Assembly (NCBI RefSeq): GCF_000020585.3
Contig: NC_011138.3
Coordinates: 3,017,596-3,081,595, forward strand
Source: Alteromonas mediterranea DE
Lineage (GTDB): Bacteria; Pseudomonadota; Gammaproteobacteria; Enterobacterales; Alteromonadaceae
Direction of reading: 5' to 3'
Length of the DNA stretch: 64,000 nt
Below the pieces are notes generated by a model. That model searched no databases. It saw only the letters and a list, made by a program, of their open reading frames with translations, and was not told the DNA's origin. The translations under genes and the position numbers were made by a program. Positions within the stretch are counted from its first letter, which is position 1. Each line of letters begins with the position of its first letter. This document shows, one piece after another, positions 36,379-42,730 of this stretch.

Positions 36379-36460
36379 ATGGCTATGAGATTTAGGAAAG
36401 ATATTCAAGGATTGAGAGCGTTAGCCGTTTTACTCGTTATCGTTTTCCACTCCAATATAG
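36379..36460 (+). pseudogene. OafA-like acyltransferase, N-terminal fragment before the first IS
   Basis: The sequence encodes 'FRKDIQGLRALAVLLVIVFH', the classical first helix of the acyltransferase-3 family with the catalytic histidine, and is cut by the IS66 element at 36461. The start is probably ATG 36379 with GGGA seven bases before; ATG 36367 and 36385 are in the same frame. It continues in frame at 37998 once the insertion is removed. Confidence 0.88.
36453..36460 (+). repeat. Target site duplication, left copy (CAATATAG)
   Basis: An 8-bp direct repeat identical to 37990-37997, the length made by IS66-family transposition. Confidence 0.95.
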
Positions 36461-36489
36461 GTAACCGTTCACCAGGGCCCTATTGACAG
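36461..36489 (+). repeat. Left inverted repeat of the first IS66
   Basis: The 29 bases match the reverse complement of 37961-37989 at 28 positions; the mismatch is at position 15. Confidence 0.93.
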
Positions 36490-36560
36490 TTAGTAATATT
36501 TATTTTCAATGATCGTGGGGATCCTATTGATTGATCCCGCCAGTCTGTCAGAGTGGTTTC

Positions 36561-37970
36561 ATGCCACGTAAAAAGCAGCCCACAAAGCCACCTGTCGCTA
36601 CTAATCTCGATGATGCCAATGAGCTCATTAGTACACTCTGGGACAGGCTAAATGACCTCGAAGACCGACTGAATCAAAACAGTCGTAATTCATCGCGCCC
36701 GCCATCGTCTAATGGGCCGGGGGCGTCCTCTTCTGCGCCAGCTAAAAAGCCGACAGGCCGTAAGCGCGGTGCGCAATCCGGCCATAAAGGCAGTAAGCGG
36801 ATGCTGGCCGATACCGTTGATGAGACGCGCACCTATTATCCCGACGATACTTGTGCTTGCGGTGGTACTATTACTATCAGTGATTCACCGTATCGCCGCC
36901 ATCAGGTTTTTGATATTCCTTCTCAGGCTTTCTCTGTGGTTGAACATCAGTTACATCAGGGTCAGTGTTGTCAGTGCAGCAAAACGGTAAAAGCAACGCT
37001 ACCTGACAACGTGAATCAGGGACAGATGGGCAATAACCTGCTGGCATATGTGGCAATGCAGTCCGGTCAGTTTCACCAGAGTATCAGTAAAATCCAGCAA
37101 CAGCTCGAACAGAACTTCGGCTTATCGTTCAGTCGCGGTGCTATCTCTGAAGCGCAGGGCCGGGTTAGTTCAGTACTGACGCCAGCGTATCAGGATATCA
37201 AAGAGATGATGCGCACTGAGGCGGTGGTACACTGCGATGAAACCCGTCATCAGCGTGGTAACGAAAACCGCTGGATGTGGCAGGTATGCACAGCAGAATT
37301 ATCATGCTTTATGACGCACTTCTCACGTGGCGCCTGGGCGGCAAAGAAACTACTCGGCGATAATCCGGAAAACATTGTTGTTACTGACCAGTATGCCGGT
37401 TATCACTACATCGATTCAGACCACCGTCAATTGTGCTGGGCGCATATCTTAAGAAACATGAATGCGCTGGCGGAAAGCTGGGGTACGAACAAGACTTATG
37501 GAACGACGTTAGTCAGGCTCATTCGCATACTGTTCCGGCTGCAACACCGGTATGAGAGTAACGCACTAAGTGAAAAGCGATACCTGGACCGGATGGAAAA
37601 ACTACGCATCGCCTGGCGAGAGCAACTTGAACTGGCATCAAGACGCTGTGTGACTCCCCGCTATCAGAACCGGTGTAAGCTACTGCTAAAACACGATGAC
37701 ATGTGCTGGGTATTCCTCAGTCACGATGGCGTCCCTCTCACTAACAATGAAGCCGAGCGTTCATTGCGAAGCTATGTGCTGTGGCGAAAAGGCAGCTATG
37801 GTGTGTGGTCTCACCGAGGGGAACTGTTCAGACAACGTATACTCACCATCGTCGAAACCTGCCGGAAACAAAAGCTGAATCCACTGAATTGGCTCCGCGC
37901 CATTCTCGAAGCGACGCTGAACAAAACGTCCTATCCTCTGCTCGACGACTTCAAAGCTGCCTGTCAATAG
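36561..37970 (+). CDS. tnpC: IS66 family transposase (ISBst12 type)
   Basis: The 469-residue transposase has, in order, a coiled leucine-rich segment near the start ('LWDRLNDLEDRLNQNSRNSS'), the SRPPSS linker, a zinc-finger-like Cys region (C-x-C and C-x2-C near 'CACGG' and 'CCQCS'), and the DDE domain: 'VHCDETRH' near 226, 'VVTDQYAGYHY' near 277, 'LCWAHILRNM' and 'NNEAERSLRSYV'. All three catalytic acids are present. I prefer ATG 36561 over TTG 36531 because family members start with 'MPRK'-like residues. The TAG stop lies inside the right inverted repeat. Confidence 0.93.
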   Translation: MPRKKQPTKPPVATNLDDANELISTLWDRLNDLEDRLNQNSRNSSRPPSSNGPGASSSAPAKKPTGRKRGAQSGHKGSKRMLADTVDETRTYYPDDTCACGGTITISDSPYRRHQVFDIPSQAFSVVEHQLHQGQCCQCSKTVKATLPDNVNQGQMGNNLLAYVAMQSGQFHQSISKIQQQLEQNFGLSFSRGAISEAQGRVSSVLTPAYQDIKEMMRTEAVVHCDETRHQRGNENRWMWQVCTAELSCFMTHFSRGAWAAKKLLGDNPENIVVTDQYAGYHYIDSDHRQLCWAHILRNMNALAESWGTNKTYGTTLVRLIRILFRLQHRYESNALSEKRYLDRMEKLRIAWREQLELASRRCVTPRYQNRCKLLLKHDDMCWVFLSHDGVPLTNNEAERSLRSYVLWRKGSYGVWSHRGELFRQRILTIVETCRKQKLNPLNWLRAILEATLNKTSYPLLDDFKAACQ

Positions 37971-37989
37971 GGCCTTGGTGAACGGTTAC
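37961..37989 (-). repeat. Right inverted repeat of the first IS66
   Basis: It pairs with 36461-36489 (28 of 29) and contains the transposase stop codon. Confidence 0.93.
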
Positions 37990-37997
37990 CAATATAG
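37990..37997 (+). repeat. Target site duplication, right copy (CAATATAG)
   Basis: Identical to 36453-36460. Confidence 0.95.
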
Positions 37998-39004
37998 AGA
38001 CTTTTAGTGGTGGCTATGTGGGAGTCGACGTATTCTTTGTAATATCGGGATACCTAATAACAGGACTGCTGTTGAAGGAGTTAAAAGACACCCAAGGCAT
38101 CCAATTCAAATCATTCTACAGTAAAAGAATTAAACGGATACTTCCCCTGTCATTGGTAGTGACTGTTAGCACTCTTTTCGTATTTAGTTTAGTTTTATCA
38201 CCGCTCGAAACTAAAGAGCTTAGCAAGACTGGGCTGATAGCTTCTGTTTTTTCTAGTAATTTATGGTTTTCCTATCTAGCAACGAGCTATTTCGGCAGCG
38301 AAAATCACTTAAACCCACTCTTGCACACATGGTCACTTGGCGTAGAAGAGCAATTCTACTTACTATGGCCAGCTGTTTTATTTTTATTTTTTCAAGCATT
38401 TGGTTTTAGGAAAGTTAAACTTTTGATTATTATATTGATCATAATTTCAATATTCATCTTCCTAACGCAATTCTCAAACAACGTACCCCAAGCATTCTTT
38501 TCTCCACATACCAGAGCATGGCAGTTCGGCTTCGGAGCACTTATTCATTTTTTGCCCCAATTGAAACCGGATTATCGTTATACCCCATCTGCCGGAGTTG
38601 GTGCTGGGTTAACGCTTATAGTGTTGACAAGCCTTCTAATAGGGCCGGAGTTTAACTCTTTTGCAGCTTACGCTATTCCTCCTACACTGGGTGCAATGAT
38701 GGTAATTTATTTCGGTGAAAAAAATAACGCCTTTTCAACTATACTCGCATGCAGACCTCTAGTATTTATCGGCAAAATTTCGTTCTCCCTATATCTATGG
38801 CACTGGCCAGTATTGGTTTTTTTCCAGTTTAGCAATCACTCTCTATCAAGCAGCAACCTTTTTCTCGCGTATACAATTATTGCCCTTCTATCAATAGGCT
38901 CGTTTTATTTCATTGAAGAAACGTTCCGCCATAGTTCAATAATCAAACAAGAACGAACCGCCCTAATAGCAGGGATTTCAATTATTGCCGCAGGCTGCTT
39001 TGCT
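37998..39004 (+). pseudogene. OafA-like acyltransferase, central membrane part between two IS elements
   Basis: This segment continues the acyltransferase-3 protein: 'TFSGGYVGVDVFFVISGYLI', 'HTWSLGVEEQFYLLWP' and about nine membrane helices follow the usual family order. Joined to 36379-36460 and 41879-42730 it gives 1941 bp, exactly 647 codons with the stop, with no frameshift. By itself it could start at GTG 38018 and would run 16 codons into the second element to a stop at 39052. OafA-type proteins put acetyl or other acyl groups on surface glycans. Confidence 0.9.
38997..39004 (+). repeat. Target site duplication, left copy (GCTTTGCT)
   Basis: An 8-bp direct repeat identical to 41871-41878. 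Confidence 0.95.
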
Positions 39005-39027
39005 GTAAGCGATCATTTTAGACTGTC
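39005..39027 (+). repeat. Left inverted repeat of the second IS66
   Basis: It starts GTAAGCGATCA and matches the reverse complement of 41848-41870 at 19 of 23 positions. Confidence 0.88.
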
Positions 39028-39090
39028 TTTTCCCTGCGGTGCTACTCCGTAAAATAGCCTCCGTAGATTTTACTAACGGAGACTTTACTG

Positions 39091-39375
39091 ATGGCAACAA
39101 AAAGACGTACACGTGAGCAATGGCAAAGATTGGTTGACAAGCAAGCAGCAAGCGAGCTGACAGTCAGTGAATTTTGTGCACAGCATGCGTTAACAGTATC
39201 AAATTTTTATCTGTGGCGTAAAAAGCTGAGCGATGATAGTCAACCGTTTGCGCAGCAGGATAACTGGCTTGCTTTTGATATGCCAGCGAGCGGAAACCAG
39301 AGTATAGATTCAGCGTGGGAGATAGAACTGGTATTACCCGGTGGTGTGGTGCTGCGGATGAACCGAGCCGTCTGA
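39091..39375 (+). CDS. tnpA: IS66 accessory protein TnpA
   Basis: A 94-residue protein with a helix-turn-helix at about 22-43 ('ELTVSEFCAQHALTVSNFYL'), typical of the small DNA-binding first gene of IS66 elements, and the usual beta-rich end 'WEIELVLPGGVVLRM'. Its TGA overlaps the tnpB start (TGATG). It appears intact. Confidence 0.9.
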   Translation: MATKRRTREQWQRLVDKQAASELTVSEFCAQHALTVSNFYLWRKKLSDDSQPFAQQDNWLAFDMPASGNQSIDSAWEIELVLPGGVVLRMNRAV

Positions 39376-39710
39376 TGTTACCCTTATCTAATGGGCGTAT
39401 TTGGTTGTACACCGGCAATGCCGATATGCGCAAACAGTTTGATGGGTTGGCAGCGCTGGTACAGAGCAAGTTGGGCATGCAGGCGCATTGTGGTGACTGG
39501 TTTGTGTTTATCAATAAACGCCGCACCCAGCTAAAGGTATTGTATTACCATCAGGGCGGTTATTGTTTGTGGAGCAAACGTCTAGAAAGAGGTACCTTCG
39601 CCAAAGTCACTGACGGCACAGCAAAAACACCATTAAACAGCGCTCAGTTACAGTGTTTGATTGATGGGATTTACTGGCAAAAAGACAAACAAAACAGGCG
39701 ATTTAATTAA
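39375..39710 (+). CDS. tnpB: IS66 accessory protein TnpB
   Basis: A 111-residue protein with the family signature 'IWLYTGNADMRKQFDGLAAL' followed by 'WFVFINKRRTQLKVLYYHQG' and 'LWSKRLERGTF'. TnpB is needed with TnpA and TnpC for IS66 transposition; its biochemical role is not settled. The start is set by overlap with the tnpA stop. It appears intact. Confidence 0.92.
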   Translation: MLPLSNGRIWLYTGNADMRKQFDGLAALVQSKLGMQAHCGDWFVFINKRRTQLKVLYYHQGGYCLWSKRLERGTFAKVTDGTAKTPLNSAQLQCLIDGIYWQKDKQNRRFN

Positions 39711-39733
39711 CTGATTTTGTTATAATTTAGCCC

Positions 39734-40624
39734 ATGAAAACACGCTCTATTAGTCACCTTTCACCGTCTGAAATTGAGGCTGCCTTTGCTCATCAAGCCG
39801 ATGAAATTGCGCAACTCAAGCAGCAACTCGACTGGCTTAAACGTCAGTTGTTCGGGCGTAAGTCTGAAAAGGTGTTAGCGGATAATCCGGCGCAGAGCAG
39901 TTTGTTTGATGAGGGGGAAACCCTCACCTTACCGGCAGAAACAAAACCGGTGAAGGCACATACTCGTTCCTCACAAAAGCAACGTCGCGACTCGGATTTG
40001 AATGATGAAGGCCTGCGTTTTGATGAGACAGTGCCGCAACAGATTATTGATATACCTGCGCCAGAATTACAGGGGGCGGATGCCGACCAGTATGAATTAG
40101 TGGATACCAAAGAAACCTGTCGCTTAGCACAACAGCCTGGCAGTTATGTGGTATTGAGATTCCGTCGACAGGTCGTGCGTCATAAAACCACGCAAACCAT
40201 TAAGGAGACGCCTGCCCCCACCAATGTGCTGGAAGGCTGTTACTGCGATGTCTCACTGCTCGCCGGACTGATGGTTGATAAAGCGGTGTATCACTTACCG
40301 CTTCACCGCCAACATCAACGGATGCTGGATAGCGGTATTACCCTTAGCCGGGCCACCTTAATCAACTGGATACAAAAAGGCATTGAGCTGCTTCGACCCA
40401 TCGCCAAAGCCCAGTGGCAACACATTCTGCAAAGTAAAATACTGGCCATGGATGAAGTGCCCATTAAAGCAGGTCGCACTAAAGGCGCTGGCCGAAAACC
40501 CGGACACATGAAACAAACCTACTTCTGGCCCCTGTACGGTGACAGTGATGAAGTGGCGTTTACTTGGAGTAACAGCCGGGGTATGTTGCATGCCCAAGCA
40601 CAGTTACAGGACTACGGGTACATC
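39734..40624 (+). pseudogene. tnpC: IS66 TnpC, N-terminal 297 residues
   Basis: The part includes the leucine-rich start ('QLKQQLDWLKRQLFGRKSEK'), the linker, and the first catalytic aspartate in 'ILAMDEVPIKAG', up to 'HAQAQLQDYG'. After that the frame runs without a stop into the DUF413 protein, so a 415-residue fusion could be made. The second aspartate and the CWAH region (roughly 50 residues) are missing, so no functional transposase is expected. Confidence 0.85.
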
Positions 40625-40981
40625 ATGAAACGTTTAGCTATTCGACCATCAGCAAAACCTTATATTGACCGTCAAAAATTTCCCTATGGATTTCGCAAAT
40701 CAGGTGACTTTAGCATTGCAGAAGCAGATCTTCTTACTCAATACGGTAAAACGTTACTGCAATTAGAAACGGGTGAACTTACACCACAAAACGACGATGA
40801 AGCGCATTTTGTTGACTTCATTAGCGGCAAGGTTGAAGCAAGTAACAACCTAGAAAAGGCGTGGGCGAAGTATGTCCGGTTAGCAAGAGGCAAGAAGCAC
40901 TTTTATACGCTTCACAGCAGCGCGAGTAATCAATCGGATTATGACGACGACTTTTCCGACGATGAATTCGATGTAGCATAA
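40625..40981 (+). CDS. DUF413/MaoP (YifE)-like protein captured inside IS66 tnpC
   Basis: The 118-residue protein beginning 'MKRLAIRPSAKPYID' has 'FPYGFRKSGDFSIAEADLL' and 'WAKYVRLARGKKHFYTLHS', the conserved blocks of DUF413, whose E. coli member MaoP organises the Ori macrodomain with the maoS site. The acidic tail is also family-like and the length equals that of the free-standing proteins (about 112), so the gene seems whole. It is in frame with the upstream tnpC piece. How it got here and whether it is expressed alone or as a fusion is unknown. It is normally a chromosomal housekeeping gene, not IS cargo. Confidence 0.85.
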   Translation: MKRLAIRPSAKPYIDRQKFPYGFRKSGDFSIAEADLLTQYGKTLLQLETGELTPQNDDEAHFVDFISGKVEASNNLEKAWAKYVRLARGKKHFYTLHSSASNQSDYDDDFSDDEFDVA

Positions 40982-40982
40982 T

Positions 40983-41471
40983 AAACAATTAGACCTAGCC
41001 GATATCCATGCTTACCGGCAACAACACAGCGAGCCACTCGTTACCGACTTCTTCCGGTGGGTCTATCAACAGCGACAACGCACTGATTTACTGCCCAAAT
41101 CTCCCTTCGCCAAGGCACTCCATTATGCGCATGAGCGAGAAAGCCAACTCAAAGTGTTCCTGGGTAACCCCGCCTTACCCATGGATACCAATCATCTTGA
41201 GCGGGCACTGCGTGTTATTCCCATGGGGAGAAAAAACTATTTGTTCTGCTGGTCTGAACTTGGCGCTGAACAACTGGGCATACTGCAAAGCCTGATGGTG
41301 ACTTGCCGCCTGCAAGGCGTTAATCCCTACCATTATCTGGTGGATGTATTACAACGCGTGGCATTACATCCGGCCAGGGACGTAATCGACCTCACGCCGC
41401 GGCTCTGGAAACAAAAATACAATCAAAACAGGTTAGTCAGCGATGTCAAAATACTCACTTCCCAACACTAA
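40983..41471 (+). pseudogene. tnpC: IS66 TnpC, C-terminal part
   Basis: Right after the DUF413 stop the transposase resumes in another frame from 'KQLDLADIHAYRQQHSEPLV' through 'LPMDTNHLERALRVIPMGR', which carries the last catalytic glutamate, to a normal C-terminus. It has no start of its own upstream of about 41154. Its end overlaps the following small gene by 29 bp. Confidence 0.85.
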
Positions 41472-41838
41472 AATCTCAGCCACAATTATGGAGTTCGGTA
41501 AAGGAGTGTTAAATGCACTCCCTGCTGATTACAGCCAGGCAGAAATGGAAGATGCTATGCTGACGATAATAACCGTGTGGAATGCCATCGTACTGGACAC
41601 TTGGCACAACACAGACAAAAATGAAAAAATGGTGCTTGATGCACTCTCTCAAGCGCCTAAAGAAGGACAACTTCAAGTAAAACGATTGATAAAAAGAAAG
41701 AAGACCAAGTTTAGCGATGATATCCGCGCGGTTGGAGATCACTGGATAAGAGAAGAGCAAGGGGACTTTATCTTCGGCTGTGAAGCACGGTTAGATATAG
41801 AACGCACCTCCTTAAACGAAGATAGCCTCAAACACTAA
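41443..41838 (+). CDS. Passenger protein of unknown function inside IS66
   Basis: A 131-residue protein with ATG at 41443, overlapping the end of tnpC and ending 10 bp before the right inverted repeat. It is mostly helical by composition, with 'NALPADYSQAEMEDAMLTI' and a lysine-rich centre 'VKRLIKRKKTKFSDDIRAVG'. I do not recognise a domain. Its fixed place between tnpC and the right end suggests a regular fourth gene of this IS66 lineage or a cargo gene. Confidence 0.7.
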   Translation: MSKYSLPNTKISATIMEFGKGVLNALPADYSQAEMEDAMLTIITVWNAIVLDTWHNTDKNEKMVLDALSQAPKEGQLQVKRLIKRKKTKFSDDIRAVGDHWIREEQGDFIFGCEARLDIERTSLNEDSLKH

Positions 41839-41847
41839 ACGAATCAC

Positions 41848-41870
41848 AACGGTCTATATTGATCGCTTAC
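41848..41870 (-). repeat. Right inverted repeat of the second IS66
   Basis: It pairs with 39005-39027 at 19 of 23 positions. Confidence 0.88.
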
Positions 41871-41878
41871 GCTTTGCT
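41871..41878 (+). repeat. Target site duplication, right copy (GCTTTGCT)
   Basis: Identical to 38997-39004. Confidence 0.95.
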
Positions 41879-42730
41879 TCATTTGGTTTCTATGCATTTT
41901 CTAAATTTGAATTGAATTCACCAGCTCAGCGGAAAATTGAAAGTGTCCAGTTTGGAGGGGTTAACACAGGCAACTGTATTTCAAAAATAGAAGAAACTGA
42001 GCTAATCGTTTGTGAGAAAGGCGATGTTAAAAGTGAGCGTACTCTCGTGCTTTTCGGCGATTCTAAAGCGCAACAATGGATCCCTGAGCTATCAGATATT
42101 GCTGCCACCAGAGGTTGGAAGTTACTAACTGTTGTGAAAGCCGGCTGCCCACCCGTATTAATGGATGTTTATTTGAGCTTTTTGGGGCGCGAATATAAGG
42201 AATGCGCTAGTTGGAAAGTAGAAGCGTTAAAACACATAGAACTTGAATCTCCAGATGTTATCGTAATGACTCATTTTGGTGGTTACGCTCCTATGATAAA
42301 TGGGAACAAAGTTAAAGGTAGTTATGATGTTTGGCAGAAAGGCATCAATAATCTATTTGAACGATTCTCTACGTTTGCTCCTACAGTATTATATCTCCCC
42401 GATAACCCTATGTTTCCAGTTGATATTCCAACTTGTTTATCGAGGAAAGTAGGAGGAGATATAGACATTCAGCCTGACGCATGTGGTTTCTCTCTTTCTG
42501 ACATGAATAGCCACCACAATGTAAAAAAGGCGATAAACAACTTACTTTTTGACAATGTTGTCGTAATGGATTTGATAGACAATTATTGCCCCAACAACTT
42601 TTGCCCGGCCGTTAGCAATGGGGAAATCAGGTACTCAGATCACCATCATTTAAGCAAGCAATATATGAAAGAAATATCGCCGATCATGGATGACAAGTTG
42701 GTAAAGATTTTTTCAAACTTGCAACAATGA
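41879..42730 (+). pseudogene. OafA-like acyltransferase, C-terminal SGNH domain after the second IS
   Basis: The frame continues from 39004 as 'SFGFYAFSKFELNSPAQRK' and then the periplasmic SGNH-hydrolase-like domain: 'TLVLFGDSKAQQWIPEL' (GDS block) and, near the end, 'YSDHHHLSKQYMKEI' (DxxH block), typical of acyltransferase-3/SGNH fusions. A TTG at 41912 could start a free SGNH protein, but without a signal peptide it would not reach the periplasm. Confidence 0.88.

Follow-up and report, generated by a model that had tools for sequence, protein, structure and literature searches.

Replacement of part of an IS66-family transposase gene by a copy of a host DUF413 gene in the genome assembly of Alteromonas mediterranea DE

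Introduction

Insertion sequences of the IS66 family present terminal inverted repeats of the GTAA.. type, and their target duplication is 8 bp long. Among the family members described as tIS66, the element ISPa75 is bounded by inverted repeats with a GTAA.. motif and combines a DDE transposase gene with a downstream passenger, fosZ, located 3' of the transposase gene; ten target duplications are reported for ISPa75 in the excerpts of that work used here (PMC12888890). The same excerpts list passengers in 7 of the 25 Pseudomonas IS66 members in ISfinder (PMC12888890). A second relevant process is double illegitimate recombination, documented in Acinetobacter baylyi (Hulter and Wackernagel 2008, as referred to in excerpts of PMC4437187 and PMC8116780), in which a non-homologous segment enters a locus via two illegitimate joints. 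Lastly, the excerpts of PMC5023128 indicate that the DUF413-type protein MaoP of Escherichia coli acts in trans with a site, maoS, situated in the hdfR-maoP intergenic region.

Here we analyze a window of 64,000 nucleotides of Alteromonas mediterranea DE (G000:C1:3017596-3081595, in a genome comprising a single contig of 4,480,937 bases) containing an IS66-family element in which a DUF413 gene occupies part of the transposase gene tnpC. The locus resembles tIS66 elements in having IS66 ends that enclose tnpA, tnpB and a captured gene of host type, but differs from those described in the excerpts of PMC12888890 in that the DUF413 cargo replaces and breaks tnpC, is seen only once and is not accompanied by evidence of movement.

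Results

Organization of the element and its target gene

The features of the locus, in window coordinates, are as follows.

38018..39004, plus strand: left part of the host gene, AT3 acyltransferase (PF01757)
38997..39004, no strand: left target-site duplication, GCTTTGCT
39005..41870, plus strand: IS66-family element of 2,866 bp, altered internally by the replacement (2,706 bp in the copies without cargo), defined by inverted repeats, target duplication and copy comparison
39005..39026, plus strand: left inverted repeat, 22 nt
39091..39375, plus strand: tnpA, 94 aa (PF01527, 22.9 bits, slightly below the cut-off of 24.1)
39315..39710, plus strand: tnpB, open reading frame as listed, true start may be further in (PF05717, 111.4 bits; cut-off, 26.6)
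39734..40613, plus strand: remaining 5' portion of tnpC, with 293 whole codons that cover the leucine-zipper region and the beginning of the DDE domain, same as in the intact copy (PF13007; PF03050 positions 3-131 of 284)
39734..40981, plus strand: TnpC-DUF413 fusion reading frame, 415 aa
40614..40615, plus strand: left-junction bases AC, matching neither the IS (TT) nor the chromosomal genes of relatives (TT, 8/8 aligned)
40616..40982, plus strand: stretch identical to the chromosomal DUF413 region, 367/367
40625..40981, plus strand: DUF413 open reading frame, 118 codons (PF04219, 109.2 bits; cut-off, 25)
40981..41471, plus strand: remaining 3' portion of tnpC, in a different frame from the fusion (PF03050 positions 246-283 and PF13817, in the open reading frame at 41154-41471)
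41443..41838, plus strand: orf4, passenger gene 3' of tnpC, 131 aa, present in all three copies of the genome
41849..41870, minus strand: right inverted repeat, 22 nt
41871..41878, no strand: right target-site duplication, GCTTTGCT
41879..42730, plus strand: right part of the host gene, SGNH domain (PF19040)

The 22-nt inverted repeats are 86% complementary and begin GTAAGCGATC. Together with the duplication of GCTTTGCT on both sides and the IS66 gene set tnpA, tnpB and tnpC (PF05717 and PF03050 above their cut-offs, PF01527 slightly below), they bear out the first-pass annotation, made from the sequence alone, which had described the ends, tnpA, tnpB and target duplication as preserved. It had also placed an intact 118-codon DUF413 gene within the core of tnpC, continuing the frame that opens at the tnpC start, and this is what the single open reading frame of 415 aa shows.

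Two other complete copies of the element were found in the genome, both of 2,706 bp and both lacking the cargo, which provides the cargo-free form with the same ends that the annotation had proposed to look for. The copy at G000:C1:1116272-1118977 is flanked by the duplication AGTAAAGA and is identical to the window copy over all 2,499 shared bases; the copy at G000:C1:380895-383600, flanked by ACTACAAA, is 97% identical. All three complete copies are thus bordered by 8-bp duplications.

The open reading frame orf4 overlaps the end of tnpC and has 98% identical copies at two further loci (L015 and L021). A protein database search returned 56 relatives, and a Pfam profile search matched it to no family. 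Like tIS66 passengers in the excerpts of PMC12888890, orf4 sits 3' of tnpC, and the tIS66 layout, with a passenger 3' of an intact transposase gene, is that of orf4 in the two intact copies and not that of the DUF413 cargo. The present IS lineage hence already carries a tIS66-like passenger, orf4.

The element interrupts a host gene encoding an AT3 acyltransferase fused to an SGNH domain, and joining its flanks after removal of one duplication yields a single open frame of 612 codons from 38018. The search for an empty target site in relatives returned none, the right part of the target gene being matched in only one of the 59 genus genomes, the genome analyzed here. A second, different IS66-type element lies at 36461-37989 within the 5' portion of this acyltransferase gene, which has therefore been struck twice by IS66-family elements. 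This second element encodes in one open reading frame a DUF6444-type TnpC of 479 aa, has an 8-bp duplication, CAATATAG, at 36453-36460 and 37990-37997 (read by eye), and is present in two more copies in the genome, both 100% identical.

In the assembly, a host DUF413 copy replaces 207 bp of tnpC

Comparison with the intact copy at G000:C1:1116272-1118977 revealed that the first 1,609 and the last 890 bases of the window copy are identical to it, and that the replaced stretch amounts to 207 bp. The loss is therefore of 69 codons, larger than the approximately 50 residues estimated initially. The lost bases encode, among others, ACWVHMRRGFEKALDS and LLTDGYAAY, which we take to hold the second catalytic aspartate of TnpC. 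In their place stands a piece of up to 367 bp identical to the host DUF413 gene region at G000:C1:2584324-2584690, where the donor gene is still in place and intact; the chromosomal gene whose persistence the annotation had asked about is thus present and matches the cargo at 367/367 bases. The shared stretch takes in 9 bases ahead of the ATG and a single base beyond the stop codon.

From the tnpC start at 39734, the fusion frame encodes 293 TnpC residues, four junction residues and 118 DUF413 residues, and the remaining tnpC sequence (approximately 162 codons) follows the DUF413 stop in another frame. The two remaining pieces leave positions 132-245 of the 284 in PF03050 unmatched, indicating that the DDE transposase of the window copy is not intact, while tnpC is whole (525 aa) in the two other complete copies. 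Because part of the catalytic domain is missing, the window element would be unable to move by its own TnpC.

All junction and identity data come from one assembly. At the level of that assembly, the replacement is confirmed beyond chance, since the host gene is matched at 367 of 367 bases and the intact copy at 1,609 plus 890 flanking bases. The same identities, with the donor present, the cargo matching it over 367 bases and the IS part matching a cargo-free copy over 2,499 bases, speak for a single replacement. We favor, at a probability of roughly 0.6, a non-homologous replacement that was recent, took place once and disrupted this TnpC. The close fit of the piece to the open reading frame (about 9 bases before the ATG and 1 after the stop), a feature noticed post hoc, speaks against a blind replacement, which would rarely be expected to produce it.

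The joints and the possibility of an assembly artefact

At the left joint, identity with the IS ends at 40613 and identity with the donor starts at 40616, leaving the bases AC in between. The corresponding place in the chromosomal gene is occupied by TT in all 8 aligned relatives, after dropping the 3 of 11 alignment rows that had no sequence there. At the right joint, the IS and donor identities overlap by two bases (40981-40982). By script, the longest common word has 5 bases at the left joint and 3 at the right one, and random pairs of places share words of at least 5 bases in 8% and of at least 6 bases in 2% of 20,000 draws. The joint words hence lie within the random range and homology does not explain the joints; microhomology at the junctions, not being above chance expectation, was rejected as their cause. 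A 6-base word, GCATAA, is common to both sequences near the right joint, but 5 bases out of register and outside the scripted limit. The two unmatched bases, AC, are consistent with non-homologous joining at the left joint.

The left edge also bears on the main rival explanation, an assembly or library artefact, according to which the DUF413 copy inside the IS would be absent from the cell and the IS would be ordinary or otherwise broken. Each of the two partners has a 100% identical counterpart elsewhere in the genome, which is what an artefact would be expected to yield, and the donor copy presents two N bases, NN, at L012:5323-5324 (G000:C1:2584322-2584323), directly beyond the point where the shared stretch begins on the left, so that the assembly is uncertain exactly there. 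With 18 runs of N in 497,004 sampled bases (this run included), approximately 0.0004 would be expected in the 12 edge bases, although these were chosen afterwards. A chimera would, however, have had to exit and re-enter the same IS at two points without long shared sequence, which overlap assembly should seldom produce. Furthermore, at the position of the donor's NN the relatives present TT (8/8 aligned) and the window presents AC, and the NN may consequently mix reads of two real copies. We lean towards this interpretation of the NN as disagreeing reads from two real copies, over an assembly failure at that point, since one copy would then read TT and the other AC. Against it, runs of N are not special to repeats in this assembly, as two of three other N places tested are single-copy and a 90% copy lies close to the third, and N is absent from the right edge. 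Taken together, an artefact appears somewhat unlikely, though it deserves serious consideration.

Origin of the cargo and relation to MaoP

The donor region has its best match in other genomes of the genus at 83%, over 587 query bases, which places the origin of the copy within this lineage. Some part of the 701-bp donor-region query was matched in 52 of 59 genomes, with some of these matches being short or outside the gene (for example, 32 bases in G019). The reverse derivation, of the chromosomal DUF413 gene from the IS copy, was rejected, given that the chromosomal locus and its flanks are recognizable in relatives.

The donor gene is divergent from a LysR gene (L012:3808-4638, minus strand) whose product is 42% identical to HdfR over 190 residues. 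It is hence a DUF413-type gene divergent from an HdfR-like gene, as in the E. coli hdfR-maoP arrangement, while the cargo lacks the hdfR-maoP intergenic region where maoS sits in that system (excerpts of PMC5023128). Divergence from hdfR, as expected for a MaoP ortholog, is a property of the donor gene and not of the cargo copy. The donor protein is 36% identical to E. coli MaoP over 84 residues (63.9 bits), but neither donor nor cargo is the closest DUF413 protein of the genome to MaoP: the product of a second DUF413 gene, at G000:C1:588203 (L013:5150-5542) and adjoining ilv-type genes, scores higher, with 41% identity over 102 residues (86.7 bits).

The cargo includes at most nine identical bases upstream of its start codon, so no promoter or maoS-like site came along with it. 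Because of this short upstream sequence and of the closer resemblance of the other paralog to MaoP, the altered nucleoid organization that had been proposed for this locus is not supported. A nucleoid effect would be possible only if the extra DUF413 copy were expressed from the IS.

Search for further carriers of the cargo

The left junction was found once in its own genome when up to 2 mismatches were allowed. Across a set of 59 genus genomes, one per species and including this one, the left part of the IS was matched in 9, and a match across the junction was obtained in this genome alone. Other cargo carriers with the same ends were considered among 11 IS stretches of the genus and rejected: the 3 informative stretches are ordinary copies according to their tnpC matches, and the other 8 run to a contig end or stop a few bases short of it, and are uninformative for cargo. 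When the DUF413 protein was compared with 33 IS-bearing loci, 32 presented no match, and the exception was the window's own locus.

Two IS matches were detected in 72,556 plasmid records, both without cargo; aligned as two segments, they cover 87% and 84% of the query. The annotation of pMIT1002 gives tnpC as a single gene of 1,578 bp. The copy in pAM1A3 of A. macleodii HOT1A3 is 98% identical; its tnpC (L080:1330-2910) is divided by the annotation into three overlapping pieces, and is probably frameshifted.

At the protein level, PF04219 was found in none of the best 120 of 2,634 database matches to the full-length fusion, and none of 93 candidate proteins of fitting length matched the junction plus DUF413 part at an E value of 0.001 or better. 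The window's own fusion protein is missing from both sets of results, so that absence in the protein searches is not informative on this genome. In addition, a literature search, conducted mostly at the level of listings, returned no report of a DUF413 gene inside an IS.

These results bear on the suggestion of the first-pass annotation that the cargo may have moved with transposase supplied in trans. The element would then be a working passenger-gene IS that transposed here with its cargo. IS66 elements with passenger genes have been published (excerpts of PMC12888890), and several features are compatible with such a carrier: its ends are identical to those of the intact copy, the target duplication is present and two complete copies in the genome could supply the transposase. 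The existence of a potential source of transposase hence stands, while supply in trans itself would have to be assumed. Yet the cargo is present in a single copy, both other copies in the genome are cargo-free, and no further carrier emerged from the 59 genus genomes, the 72,556 plasmid records or the protein searches. Similarly, a cargo-bearing form at several sites with their own duplications was not found, with one site in the genome and 1 of 59 genus genomes. In the published passenger elements, moreover, the gene lies 3' of the transposase gene and does not replace its core (excerpts of PMC12888890). As far as tested, all copies but this one are cargo-free, a situation that the annotation itself had named as a refutation, which leaves the claim of movement unsupported; an intact target duplication would be seen just as well if the IS had inserted before it was altered, and nothing in the sequence shows that the cargo ever moved. 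A mobile carrier of this kind appears improbable. More generally, an IS might acquire an entire host open reading frame, from start to stop, in exchange for its transposase core and become a non-autonomous carrier moved by intact copies, with the present locus captured directly after such an event; we regard this route as quite improbable.

The open fusion frame and complete DUF413 domain raise a further alternative, namely that the fusion of the TnpC N-terminal part with DUF413 was selected as useful, for example as a DNA-binding or oligomerizing DUF413 protein. The frame is open through the junction, but in-frame joining arises by chance in one case in three, no similar protein was found among the 93 candidates of fitting length, and the identity of the DUF413 copies renders any trace of selection unmeasurable. 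We consider this alternative very improbable, and nothing in the sequence points to a function for the extra DUF413 copy or the fusion.

Discussion

A single, recent replacement may be outlined as follows. As its ends and target duplication show, the IS66-family element inserted by transposition into an acyltransferase gene that was damaged beforehand. Then, or shortly before insertion, 207 bp in the middle of tnpC were exchanged for a copy of the host DUF413 gene, with the donor retained, as the identity on both sides shows. DNA synthesis with two template switches would be a likely route, as would a DNA fragment entering by double illegitimate recombination. The resulting element would be mobile only if an intact copy supplied transposase, and a TnpC-DUF413 fusion may be made from it, or DUF413 may start at its own ATG.

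Judged by analogy, the process most like the present replacement is double illegitimate recombination, as in both cases a non-homologous segment enters a locus via two illegitimate joints (passages of PMC4437187 and PMC8116780). In A. baylyi, however, the DNA is taken up by transformation, according to the same passages (PMC4437187, PMC8116780), whereas here the segment is the cell's own gene and the process would have to be reconstructed from one product.

The replacement says little about nucleoid organization. If it proved to be an assembly error, it would serve as a warning about a single-contig reference genome. If real, it would constitute an unusually fresh example of an IS taking up a host gene, in which the donor, an identical empty IS and the filled IS coexist undecayed in one genome, so that both joints can be read, and it would bear on the origin of passenger-gene IS elements.
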